From Gammaproteobacteria bacterium Milos-ODIII6 (GTDB lineage Bacteria > Pseudomonadota > Gammaproteobacteria > Chromatiales > Chromatiaceae), in assembly GCA_029228645.1 (NCBI GenBank), contig JAPTHR010000011.1, positions 183 through 64,182 on the forward strand: DNA of 64,000 bases. The letters are read 5' to 3'. The notes beneath the pieces were generated by a model that was given only the letters and a program-made list of their open reading frames with translations, ran no database searches and had not been told where the DNA came from. Both the position numbers and the translations under genes were made by a program. This document shows, piece by piece, positions 23,407 to 29,193 of the stretch (its first letter is position 1; every line of letters starts with the position of its first letter).

Positions 23407-23442
23407 TGTCCCGTGGAAGAAATCACTCACGAAGGATGCAAG

Positions 23443-24102
23443 ATGAAAGCCTCGAAACTCGCTGTCTCTGTCGCCGTGGCGGCTCTCCTGGCCGGGTGCC
23501 AGACGATCGACCCCTACACCCAGGAGAGCAAGACCTCCAACACCGCCAAGGGGGCCGGAATCGGGGCTGTCGCGGGCGGTATCGCCGGGGCCTTGATCAA
23601 GAAAGACGATCGCGGCAAGGGCGCGGTCATCGGCGCCGCGCTGGGTGCCGGCGTGGGTGGCGGTGTCGGTTACTACATGGACCAGCAGGAAACCCAGCTG
23701 CGCCAGACCCTGGCCGGCAGCGGCGTCAGCGTGACCCGCGTGGGGGACACCATCATTCTCAACATGCCGGGCAATATAACCTTCGATACGGATCGCTTCG
23801 ACGTGCGCAGTGACTTCTATCCAGTGCTCGACTCGGTGGTGCTGGTGCTGGAGAAGTTCAACCAGACCCGGGTGCGCGTCTCCGGTCACACCGACAGCAC
23901 CGGCAGCCAGCAGCACAACCAGGCGCTGTCGCTGCAGCGAGCCCGGTCGGTTACCGCCTACCTCGAAAGCCGCGGCGTGGCGCCGTTGCGGATGGAGACC
24001 GTGGGATACGGCGAGGACCGGCCGATCGCAGACAACGCCACAGCCGCGGGGCGCAGTCAGAACCGTCGTGTGGAGATAGAAATCCTGCCGCCGAGCGCGT
24101 GA
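23443..24102 (+). CDS. OmpA-family outer-membrane lipoprotein (YiaD-like)
   Basis: The 219-aa product begins with a lipoprotein signal (MKASKLAVSVAVAALLAGC; lipobox LAGC). A glycine-rich segment follows (GAGIGAVAGGIAGALI and GAALGAGVGGGVGYY). The C-terminal OmpA domain binds peptidoglycan: NITFDTDRFDVR, VRVSGHTDSTGS, LSLQRARSVTAYLESRGV and GRSQNRRVEIEI. It should anchor the outer membrane to the cell wall, as YiaD does. GAAGGA at 23431-23436 fixes the start at 23443. It is divergent from the HDOD gene and converges with ygfZ. Confidence 0.92.
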   Translation: MKASKLAVSVAVAALLAGCQTIDPYTQESKTSNTAKGAGIGAVAGGIAGALIKKDDRGKGAVIGAALGAGVGGGVGYYMDQQETQLRQTLAGSGVSVTRVGDTIILNMPGNITFDTDRFDVRSDFYPVLDSVVLVLEKFNQTRVRVSGHTDSTGSQQHNQALSLQRARSVTAYLESRGVAPLRMETVGYGEDRPIADNATAAGRSQNRRVEIEILPPSA

Positions 24103-25207: not shown

Positions 25208-27019
25208 GTGTCATCGTCGCTGGGCGCAGGCGCCCTGGTCATCTATAAGAGTCAGCCAGCGCTGGTCGCCTCCGTAGGCGAGAAAATCGAAATCCGAACC
25301 CCTTCGGGGAAGGATCGCAAGGTGCGGCCCAAAGACGTGCAGTTGCTGCATCCGGGCCCGCTCCAGTCACTTTCTTCGCTGCGTGACCCGCAGGCCAACC
25401 TCGACGAGAGCTGGGAGCTGCTGCAGGGCGAGCAGCCCGGCTTCGAGGATTTGGCCGAGCTGGTTTTCGGCGAGTTCTCACCGTCCTCCGCGTGGGCCTG
25501 CTGGCAGTTGTTGCAGGATGGTCTCTATTTCCGCGGCGACATGCACGCCATCGCGGTCGTCACGCCGGCCGAATTCTCGCAGGAAAGTGAGCGGCGTGAG
25601 AGCCAGGCGCGCGAGGCCCGGGAGTGGGATGACTTCATCTCGCGCGTGCAGGCTGGCGACCTGCAGGAGAGCGATCGCAAGCGCCTGGCCGAGGTCGAGC
25701 GCGTCGCCCTCGGGGCGTCCGAGCACAGCCGGATACTCGCAACGCTCAAGACAGAGGCGACTCCGGATGCGGCGCACCGATTCCTGCTGCGCTGCGCTTA
25801 CTGGTCGCCGGAGGAGAACCCCTGGCCGCGCCGTGCAGGGCTGAACCTGTCGCCTCCGGAGATCGGCGTGCCGGATCTGCCGCAGGAGGAGCGCCTCGAT
25901 CTGACTCACCTGGCCGCTTGGGCGATCGATGATGTTGGCAACCAGGATCCAGATGATGCGATCAGCCTGGACGGCGATTATCTCTGGGTACACATTGCCG
26001 ACGTCGCCGCGCTGGTGCGTCCGGATGGTCACCTCGATCGGGAGGCGAGGGAGCGCTCGGCGAATCTGTACCTCCCTGAACAAACCGTGCCAATGTTGCC
26101 GGATTCAGTTACGCAGCAGCTTGGCCTCGGCCTGCTGGAGGAATCCCCGGCGCTCTCGATCGGTATGCGTTTGCTGGCCGGGGAGCCTGCCGACATCCGC
26201 ATCGAGCGCACCCGCGTAAAGGTGAATCGCACCAGCTACGACGAAGTCAACGGCCGCATGAGCGAATCACCCTTCGCGCAGATTGCGGCCATCACCGATG
26301 CCTACCGCCAGCGGCGCCTGGCGCGCAATGCGGCGCGACTCGATCTGCCCGAAGCCTCTGTGCGCGTTGTCGACGGGGATATCCGGATTCGGCCGCTGCC
26401 CAAGACGGCCAGCCGTGACATGGTGACCGATGCCATGTTGATGGCGGGTGAGGCGGTGGCGATGTTTGCCGAACAGCACGACCTGGCGATTCCATTCGCG
26501 ATGCAGCCGGAGCCGGAAGAGATCCGCCACCCGGCAACTGCCTCGGAGATGTATGCCTACCGGCGCCTGTTCAAGCCCAGCAACACGGTGCTGCATCCGG
26601 AACCTCATTTCGGTCTGGGTCTGCCACGCTACGCGCGCGCCACCAGCCCCCTGAGACGCTATGCGGACCTCCTGGTGCACCAGCAGTTGCGGGCTTTCGT
26701 CAGTGGCGCTGAGCCCATGTCGCGCGAGCTGATGGCCGAGCGCATCGCCGGCATCGACGTGACCAATGCGCGCATCCGGCGCGCCGAACGGCAATCCAAT
26801 CTGCACTGGAAACTGGTTTACCTGCAGCGCCACCCCGATTGGCAAGGCGATGCCGTCGTGGCGTCGCTGGAGGAGCGCAAGGCGGTGTTGCTGATTCCCG
26901 AACTGGCGATGGAGGTCAAGGTCCGGCTGCACGATAAATTCGCCCTCGACGGGGGGGTTCGGATTCGATTGCGTGAGACCGATACGGTGACTCAGGATGC
27001 GTGGTTCAGGGTGCTGTGA
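25208..27019 (+). CDS. Ribonuclease II family protein (RNB domain)
   Basis: Enzymes of this family degrade RNA 3' to 5'. The 603-aa product has a divergent N-terminal part in place of clear cold-shock domains. The RNB catalytic domain follows, with AIDDVGNQDPDDAISLDGD supplying the acidic metal ligands and LPRYARATSPLRRYADLLVHQQL near its end. The C-terminus is a short S1-like barrel. It is shorter than E. coli RNase II (644 aa). It begins at a GTG with GAGGGAAA upstream (25193-25200). It may be RNase II itself or a paralogue, so no symbol is assigned. Confidence 0.88.
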   Translation: MSSSLGAGALVIYKSQPALVASVGEKIEIRTPSGKDRKVRPKDVQLLHPGPLQSLSSLRDPQANLDESWELLQGEQPGFEDLAELVFGEFSPSSAWACWQLLQDGLYFRGDMHAIAVVTPAEFSQESERRESQAREAREWDDFISRVQAGDLQESDRKRLAEVERVALGASEHSRILATLKTEATPDAAHRFLLRCAYWSPEENPWPRRAGLNLSPPEIGVPDLPQEERLDLTHLAAWAIDDVGNQDPDDAISLDGDYLWVHIADVAALVRPDGHLDREARERSANLYLPEQTVPMLPDSVTQQLGLGLLEESPALSIGMRLLAGEPADIRIERTRVKVNRTSYDEVNGRMSESPFAQIAAITDAYRQRRLARNAARLDLPEASVRVVDGDIRIRPLPKTASRDMVTDAMLMAGEAVAMFAEQHDLAIPFAMQPEPEEIRHPATASEMYAYRRLFKPSNTVLHPEPHFGLGLPRYARATSPLRRYADLLVHQQLRAFVSGAEPMSRELMAERIAGIDVTNARIRRAERQSNLHWKLVYLQRHPDWQGDAVVASLEERKAVLLIPELAMEVKVRLHDKFALDGGVRIRLRETDTVTQDAWFRVL

Positions 27020-27094
27020 CGGGGCGTCCGTGTACACCGACAGCCCTGCCTGAACCGGCTATACTCAGGCCTTTCAAGCGAGCAGGAGTTTGGC

Positions 27095-27292
27095 GTGGAC
27101 GACATGAAATCCGGCAACAACGTGAGAAAACCACACGACAGAACCTCCTCGGAAGAATTCACCAGTTTTTGTGAAGCCGAATTCGAACGCCGTCGTAACT
27201 CCGGAACCAGTTTCGACGAACAACGTTATCAGCAGGCCATGAACCTGGTCATGGAAAAGCTGCGTCGATTGGAAGAAGGGGGGGCGGCATGA
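27095..27292 (+). CDS. Small hypothetical protein coupled to SMC-like ATPase
   Basis: The 65-aa product is highly charged and helical, with FTSFCEAEFERRRNSGTSFDEQ followed by YQQAMNLVMEKLRRLEEGG. No signal peptide or membrane segment is present. It starts at a GTG with AGGAG six bases upstream and ends in an ATGA overlap with the next gene. That indicates translational coupling and suggests the two proteins are made together. I do not recognise a family. A TATACT box at 27060-27065 could be part of a promoter. Confidence 0.72.
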   Translation: MDDMKSGNNVRKPHDRTSSEEFTSFCEAEFERRRNSGTSFDEQRYQQAMNLVMEKLRRLEEGGAA

Positions 27293-29193
27293 TCATCACG
27301 CGTCTCGAGGCCAGCAACGTGCTCAAGTACCGGCGGCTCTCCCTGAGTCTTCCGGAGAAGGGTCTCATTGCCATCAGCGGGCAAAACGAATCGGGCAAGA
27401 GCAGCATTGGCGAGTCGGTCTGTTTCGCGCTCTTCGGCCGGACTTTTTCGGTTGGCCCGGATGATCTGCACAAGGTGGTTCGCTGGGGCGAGAATCATTG
27501 CGTGGTGCGCCTGGATTTCCGCATCGCTGACCAGAGTTACACGTTGTCACGTTTTCTCGATCGCGATGGTAATCACAGTGCCAAGCTTGCGCTCGAGGGT
27601 GAAGAAGAGCCCTTCGCGCGCGGCGTGACGCACGTCAACGAACTGCTGGTCGGCCTGCTGGGTTTCGAGTACGAGCAGTTCGTCGAGTCTTTCTATCTCG
27701 CGCAGCGCGAGATAACCACCCCGCACCCGCACAGCCAGGCGGTCAAGATCATGGCCGGGGTGGCGCCGCTCGAGCAGGTGGATAGGGAGATCGGTAACGA
27801 GATCGCCGAACGCAAGGAACTGCTCGAGGAAGTGGAAGCGGAATGCGATGCCCTGCGACAGGAGATGGACGACCTGGGCGTGCAGGAGGGCTACCTGGAT
27901 CGACTCCGCGAGCACAGGGCCGAGACCCTGGAAGAACGGGAACAGGTGGTCGCTCAGGTGGATGAATTGCGCGAACGCGTGGCTGTCTACGAGCACAACA
28001 CGCGCGCGGCTTACAAGGCGGAACAGGCGCGCTCACGGGCCTCATTCCTGCGCTTTCTGTTCTTCCTGCTGGCGGCCCTCGTCGGGGGTTCCTGGTGGCT
28101 GCTGGTACCGGGGCGAGAAACGCCCGCGGGCGAGCAGTTCCCCACCTTGCTCGACCAGTACCTGCCGCAGTGGCAGCAGGTGCCGCCCGAGTGGTTGTTG
28201 TGGGGTGCGGCCGGGTCCGTGGTCCTGTTCCTGCTGATGTGGATTCGCGTGGCCGTCAAGAGAGGCCGGGTGGGTCGCCTGCGCGCCGAAGCGGGACTGC
28301 TGGCCGAGAGCCTGCAGAAGGCGAGAACCTTCGATCTGGAGGTCGAGCAGGAGGCAGAACCGGTGGCGGTCGCCACTGAGGCGGAGGCCCCGGAAGATCC
28401 GGATGTCCTGGAGGCAGACGAGTTGCCAGCGGTGGAGTCGGTACCGGTGCGCCCGGATGCTTCCGAGCTGGAAGACATCGCGGCTTCGGTCGCCACGGGT
28501 GAGGCGACCGTGCGCCGGGTCCTGGAGTACGCCGAGCCGGAGATGGCCTGGCTCGGCTACGTGGGTGGATTGCTGGGTGATCAGGCGGTGGACCTCGAGC
28601 AGGCGATTGCGACCGAGGAGGAGCGCGTGCGCGAGCAGCGCAGTCTGCTCGAGGTGCAGGCCGGTATTCGCGGGAAGCGGGAGGATGTACTGGCCCGCAT
28701 CGACTTGCGGCTCAAGGCGCAGGAGTTGCTGCAGGGGTCGATTGCCCATCTGTCCAACAACTTCAATCGCGACATCAAAGACCTGGTGGCGCGCATGCTG
28801 CCGCGTTTCACCGACGAACGCTACGAGCATCTGCAGATCGACCAGGACCTGAGGGTGCGCGTTTTCTCGGCAGAGAAACGCGATTTCATGGATCTCGAAG
28901 AGGTTTCCAGTGGCACCCAGCGTCAGATAATGCTGGCCCTGCGCCTGGCGCTGTCGCAGAAGCTGCTCAGCCGTAAAATCACGGGCAAACAGTTCGCTTT
29001 CCTGGATGAGCCGTTCGCGTTTTTCGACGAGGACAGGACCCGCAAGGCGCTCGCGGCGCTGGCGGATCTGTCAGCGGATATCAGCCAGGTCTGGATCGTC
29101 GCGCAGTCGTTTCCCGTGGATAGCGCGGTTGGCTTCGATGCGCACATCGTGTGTGAGCGCGGTTCGGAGGAACTGGTACTCGAGGCCGGATAA
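27289..29193 (+). CDS. Membrane-anchored Rad50/SbcC-like AAA ATPase
   Basis: The 634-aa product resembles SMC/Rad50/YhaN ATPases. The order is Walker A GQNESGKSS (31-39), Q-loop SFYLAQREI (near 139) and a coiled-coil arm (about 165-250). Two membrane helices follow (about 253-273 and 302-322). An acidic linker (350-400) and a second coiled-coil (430-485) lead to the ABC signature SSGTQRQ (540-546) and Walker B FAFLDEPFAFFDED (569-582). Rad50-type proteins tether or process DNA ends, usually with a nuclease such as SbcD; none is nearby. The membrane hairpin where a zinc hook would sit is unusual. The gene overlaps the 65-aa gene by four bases. Confidence 0.85.
   Translation: MIITRLEASNVLKYRRLSLSLPEKGLIAISGQNESGKSSIGESVCFALFGRTFSVGPDDLHKVVRWGENHCVVRLDFRIADQSYTLSRFLDRDGNHSAKLALEGEEEPFARGVTHVNELLVGLLGFEYEQFVESFYLAQREITTPHPHSQAVKIMAGVAPLEQVDREIGNEIAERKELLEEVEAECDALRQEMDDLGVQEGYLDRLREHRAETLEEREQVVAQVDELRERVAVYEHNTRAAYKAEQARSRASFLRFLFFLLAALVGGSWWLLVPGRETPAGEQFPTLLDQYLPQWQQVPPEWLLWGAAGSVVLFLLMWIRVAVKRGRVGRLRAEAGLLAESLQKARTFDLEVEQEAEPVAVATEAEAPEDPDVLEADELPAVESVPVRPDASELEDIAASVATGEATVRRVLEYAEPEMAWLGYVGGLLGDQAVDLEQAIATEEERVREQRSLLEVQAGIRGKREDVLARIDLRLKAQELLQGSIAHLSNNFNRDIKDLVARMLPRFTDERYEHLQIDQDLRVRVFSAEKRDFMDLEEVSSGTQRQIMLALRLALSQKLLSRKITGKQFAFLDEPFAFFDEDRTRKALAALADLSADISQVWIVAQSFPVDSAVGFDAHIVCERGSEELVLEAG

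Follow-up and report, generated by a model that had tools for sequence, protein, structure and literature searches.

To our knowledge, the known SMC/Rad50-type machines are all cytoplasmic and have arms joined by a hinge or a zinc hook. The ATPase cycle of Rad50/SMC proteins is gated by the Mre11 helix-loop-helix or by the end of a kleisin. The locus described here lies in a 64,000-nt stretch of DNA (referred to as the window) and encodes a Rad50-like ATPase with two predicted membrane helices, preceded by a 65-aa protein (the partner). The features of the locus are as follows (window coordinates).

25208..27019, + strand: RNase II-type (RNB) gene; a recurrent upstream neighbour in the lineage (ancestral synteny), outside the invariant module.
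27037..27065, + strand: weak match of promoter type (9 of 12) in the gap that separates the pair from the RNase II gene; no more than suggestive.
27095..27292, + strand: ORF of the 65-aa partner; GTG start; two-helix hairpin (helices 18-35 and 42-61).
27289..27292, + strand: ATGA overlap of the partner stop and the ATPase start, read from the sequence; translational coupling.
27289..29193, + strand: ORF of the 634-aa membrane-anchored Rad50-like ATPase; ATG start; Pfam AAA_23 (5.8e-12) and Rad50 heads in the PDB.
27289..27762, + strand: N-terminal head half (residues 1-158) with Walker A GQNESGKSS and Q-loop YLAQRE, from alignments and AF2.
27763..28038, + strand: outgoing coiled-coil arm (residues 159-250) with a break near 197-201, from AF2.
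28039..28110, + strand: TM helix 1 (about residues 251-274), from hydropathy; W269 conserved in 48/49 members.
28111..28185, + strand: short loop on the periplasmic side (about residues 275-299), in which P293 and W295 are conserved; from the positive-inside test and conservation.
28186..28254, + strand: TM helix 2 (about residues 300-322), from hydropathy, AF2 and conservation.
28324..28458, + strand: acidic cytoplasmic linker (residues 346-390), 33% D/E, poorly conserved, low pLDDT.
28459..28809, + strand: returning coiled-coil arm (residues 391-507) with conserved E443, R446, L453, F492 and N493, from AF2 and the alignment.
28810..29190, + strand: C-terminal head half (residues 508-634) with signature SSGTQRQ, Walker B FLDEP, D-loop FFD and Gln606 at the H-loop position.

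By sequence and by structure, the nearest PDB relatives of the ATPase are archaeal Rad50 heads. In the AlphaFold model (pLDDT 86.7) the N and C ends form a single Rad50-type ABC head, and comparison of the model with 3av0_B gave Z 31.5 and rmsd 5.2 over 353 aligned residues (26% identity). The ATPase resembles Rad50-Mre11/SbcCD in head fold (Z about 31), in the split ABC head with antiparallel arms, and in Walker A/B, Q-loop and D-loop, which are common to both. The partner, a small helical element, may stand in for the Mre11 helix-loop-helix. Rad50-Mre11/SbcCD differ in their CxxC hook (a membrane hairpin on short arms here), their nuclease subunit (none here) and their H-loop His (Gln here). 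The ATPase falls far below every curated Rad50/SbcC cut-off: the best match to the NCBIfam Rad50/SbcC/RecF models reached 76.6 bits versus 847, and the Pfam matches to SMC_N, SbcC_Walker_B and AAA_27 were all below cut-off. SMC-ScpAB, condensin and cohesin share with it a folded-back coiled-coil ABC protein (head Z about 26-30) and an extra subunit. They have a hinge and kleisin/KITE subunits, whereas neither is recognisable here and the arms end in the membrane. The ATPase gave no Pfam match to an SMC hinge domain, and its apex is the membrane hairpin. As to kleisin likeness, the partner has no Pfam or structural match, and its length of only 65 aa leaves room for a degenerate equivalent. YhaN (SbcE)/YhaO, with YhaN in AAA_27, likewise pairs a Rad50-like ATPase with a co-encoded protein, but that partner is a metallophosphoesterase, which the 65-aa protein is not, and the ATPase stays under the AAA_27 gathering score (19.3 versus 22 bits). 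MADS Mad3 is the nearest PADLOC profile and spans both head halves; unlike MADS Mad3 and Lamassu LmuB, the present locus has no defence effector or defence neighbourhood.

The search for homologues of the ATPase gave 139 sequences, some of them near-identical (107 non-redundant). The Walker A Lys and the D-loop Asp are present in 139/139, and the Walker B Asp-Glu in 138/138. In loci L003 and L028 one copy is without the residues over Walker B (FLDEP), which may be an assembly error or a decayed gene. The preliminary description had stated that every nucleotide motif of Rad50/SMC proteins is kept. This proved too broad: the H-loop His is replaced by Gln in 136/139 homologues and the signature reads SSGTQ, not SGGxQ. 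With Gln at the H-loop position, hydrolysis may be slow or different.

Two hydrophobic helices are found in the ATPase (Kyte-Doolittle windows from residues 256 and 303), and in the AlphaFold model they lie at the junction of the two coiled-coil arms. The family mean for K/R is 4.3 ahead of TM1, falls to 0.8 in the periplasmic loop and is 3.3 after TM2. The hydropathy and the positive-inside rule hold family-wide, and the ATPase is predicted to be an inner-membrane protein with N-in/C-in topology. The TM pair, already proposed from the sequence of this one protein, is present in 138/139 homologues. Two forms differ in the start of TM1, which is near residue 257 in the short one (n=105) and near 363 in the long one (n=33). 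The arms are about 14 nm in the ATPase and longer in the second subfamily; as arm length varies by subfamily while head, hairpin and partner are constant, the arm would be a spacer between membrane and head. A CxxC zinc hook at the arm apex was found in 0/49 sequences of the ATPase alignment, and the CxxC motifs in 10/139 homologues are scattered and non-homologous. The acidic linker, which varies from 8 to 66 residues across homologues, had been placed where a zinc hook would be. The linker itself is real, but it lies in the cytoplasm, after TM2; it is the membrane hairpin that occupies the position of the hook.

The partner gene has a Shine-Dalgarno-like AGGAG immediately 5' of its GTG start. 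Its product is modelled by AF2 as a two-helix hairpin (pLDDT 80), with the family motif FxxYCEAEFERRRNSGxxFDExxYxxAMxLVxxKLxxLExEG. The partner gene lies directly 5' of the ATPase gene in 79/79 annotated-contig loci with upstream DNA (4-nt overlap, -4, in 73/79), in 18/18 divergent gammaproteobacterial loci and in 15/15 loci from another class of Pseudomonadota (-4 overlap in 13/15). Two of these 15 partners (L168 and L182) have weak profile scores but the same overlapping position. The ATGA overlap reported in the preliminary description was thus seen again here, and its suggestion of a dedicated subunit gains support: homologues with the same topology and neighbour were collected, homologues without the 65-aa protein were looked for, and none was found among the 79, 18 and 15 loci. 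For close pairs the dN/dS of the partner is 0.03-0.25, and distant pairs give higher or saturated values; judged by the close pairs, the partner is under purifying selection. The partner and the ATPase form a deeply conserved pair in which the small helical protein is always encoded with the ATPase. Profile searches with the partner gave no Pfam, NCBIfam or PADLOC family match, and a structure search gave no match below E 7 among known structures. Weak PDB sequence matches to cullin-3 (E about 0.03, 28 residues) were taken as chance. The sequence-weighted covariation of partner and ATPase (effective 66 sequences) was dominated by phylogeny and located no binding site. One Cys in the YCEAE motif (residue 26 of the partner, window 27170-27172) is conserved in >90% of 48 aligned members, in a protein predicted to be cytoplasmic with two helices.

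One copy of the pair is found in its own genome (G000, 3.5 Mb, 25 contigs). The pair is carried by 8/8 genomes of the genus, by 24/55 relatives (patchy at the family level), by 36/369 genomes sampled across the class and by an additional 33 genomes that belong to another class of Pseudomonadota. A scan of genome contigs reported 216 related stretches; the 80 that were kept are gammaproteobacterial, e.g., from Chromatiales, Sedimenticola, Thiodiazotropha and animal symbionts. The pair was not found in the plasmid, phage or viral-contig collections. Across 33 loci, ATPase distances track the distances for the RNase II gene next to it (Mantel r 0.93). This fits vertical descent, although genes that lie side by side could also move as one unit. 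In the one-contig genome G005 of the same genus, the ATPase gene (locus L195, contig 1, 1536500-1541500) is broken near codon 68 by an insertion that carries a 299-aa transposase-like ORF and looks to be of the IS3 kind. The gene is therefore dispensable in G005.

By a narrow balance we favour the reading that the pair represents an undescribed class of SMC/Rad50-like coiled-coil ABC complex, found in at least two classes of Pseudomonadota, in which a membrane hairpin takes the place of hinge or hook and a 65-aa subunit is obligatory. Such a complex would couple ATP-driven head engagement to the inner membrane, tethering DNA or signalling across the membrane. More specifically, and as a tentative proposal only, we infer a membrane-tethered SMC/Rad50-like ATPase complex that has a helical subunit of its own and probably clamps DNA at the membrane. 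The sequence and the model show that each ATPase chain folds back so that its N and C halves make one head with arms reaching to the inner membrane, and that the two-helix hairpin replaces the zinc hook or hinge. Two chains would pair via their heads, perhaps also via their hairpins; ATP-driven head engagement would close the clamp below the membrane, and the small protein would bind the head or arm base and gate the ATPase cycle. The cargo would most likely be chromosomal DNA, held or inspected at the membrane and not cut. The head is of a known kind; the membrane apex and the obligatory subunit are new. We found no paper on a membrane-anchored SMC/Rad50 protein in the open-licence literature, and no curated family naming the system. 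The partner gene is short and outside the curated families, so annotation offers no lead to the system. If the proposal is true, it would give a direct handle on DNA attachment or survey at the bacterial inner membrane; alternatively, the system would show a Rad50-type ATPase fold recruited for work across the envelope.

The Rad50-type head, the conserved Walker A Lys and Walker B Asp-Glu, the conserved N-in/C-in hairpin, the arm that varies in length while the rest is kept, the universal partner under purifying selection, the lack of SbcC, SbcD and YhaN in the genome, and the core-gene setting with its vertical signal count for the ATPase-complex reading. The head and arms of the ATPase are net acidic, which counts against a DNA clamp, as do the Gln at the H-loop position, the patchy presence at the family level and the broken gene in G005. 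In the other class of Pseudomonadota, the ATPase gene is directly followed by a PBP_like_2 periplasmic binding-protein gene at 14/16 loci, and the two often overlap by 4 nt; this coupling points outwards and also counts against the clamp. It favours the main rival, a trans-envelope device in which ATP-driven head engagement would pull on the arms and hairpin and thereby transmit force or a signal into the periplasm, with DNA uninvolved. FtsEX-type mechanotransmission is the working analogue. The conserved Trp and Pro residues of the hairpin and its loop (W269, P293 and W295) are in line with it, but this periplasmic loop has just about 25-30 residues, the head belongs to the Rad50 type that handles DNA, and among Gammaproteobacteria the module shows no linkage with the binding protein (close homologues of the latter are found in four relatives with the ATPase and three without it). 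For the last reason, the binding protein was rejected as a universal third component. We consider the trans-envelope device rather doubtful. That the pair is decayed or accidental and functionless is extremely improbable. The interrupted gene in G005 and the copy without Walker B residues could be read in this way, but conservation strongly disfavours it: the partner is universal, its dN/dS in close pairs is low, and the catalytic residues are kept.

A DNA-binding clamp at the membrane must also be weighed against roles in defence and in repair. The preliminary description listed a defence module among its possibilities, and an anti-phage or anti-plasmid ATPase of the MADS/Lamassu kind acting at the membrane would agree with the PADLOC results (mad3 is the top match for 49/49 members, at 1.9e-24 for the ATPase described here; LmuB match in 45/49) and with the patchy presence within the family. 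These matches are ascribed to shared head ancestry, not to membership. No Lamassu or MADS effector gene was seen beside the ATPase in the neighbour lists or in the Pfam matches of the neighbours, the module has no constant effector gene, and all eight genomes of the genus carry the pair. The surrounding window genes, among them those that we take from their predicted proteins to be dnaE, lysS, ygfZ, the RNase II-type gene, suhB, trmJ, cysE, iscR, iscS, hscA, ndk, hisS, guaB and guaA, read as core chromosome. This housekeeping setting, the tracking of the RNase II gene and the lack of plasmid, phage or viral copies argue against a mobile defence system, and a defence role is unlikely. A repair ATPase in place of SbcC/Rad50, giving end recognition to an unlinked nuclease, would fit the Rad50 head fold, the adjacent RNase II-type gene in many loci and the own genome, which lacks both SbcCD and YhaN. 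A search of that whole genome found no SbcC, no AAA_27/YhaN protein and, for SbcD, a top score of only 20.4 bits against a cut-off of 77.65; the partner has no nuclease domain. The absence of an SbcD-type nuclease, first noted from the locus, thus extends to the genome, and an ordinary SbcC with a distant sbcD is ruled out there, as is identity with YhaN/YhaO. Among the relatives, SbcD is above cut-off in eight, and 5/8 also carry the ATPase, so the ATPase is no substitute for SbcCD. The missing zinc hook and the membrane anchor also speak against repair, and the nearness of RNase II, which is part of a larger conserved block, is lost in other lineages. A repair role is quite unlikely. The YhaN of one relative (G014) is 1162 aa long, has no TM helix, adjoins its phosphoesterase and coexists with the ATPase.

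The genes upstream of the pair vary. RNase II is found there in many Chromatiales and Sedimenticola loci and hslV-hslU in others; hemB, lysA, adk and cytochrome c assembly or sulfate permease genes are neighbours elsewhere. Only the pair is constant across loci. RNase II was rejected as a functional partner, its adjacency being part of the wider block (lysS, an HDOD gene, ygfZ and RNase II). In the other class, MFS and ATP-grasp genes lie 5' of the pair in about nine loci. The recurrent operon there (L168-L183) encodes an MFS transporter, an ATP-grasp protein, the partner, the ATPase and the PBP_like_2 protein, and its genes often overlap. In the window, an OmpA-like lipoprotein with a glycine-zipper stretch (23413-24102) adjoins ygfZ and appears ordinary.
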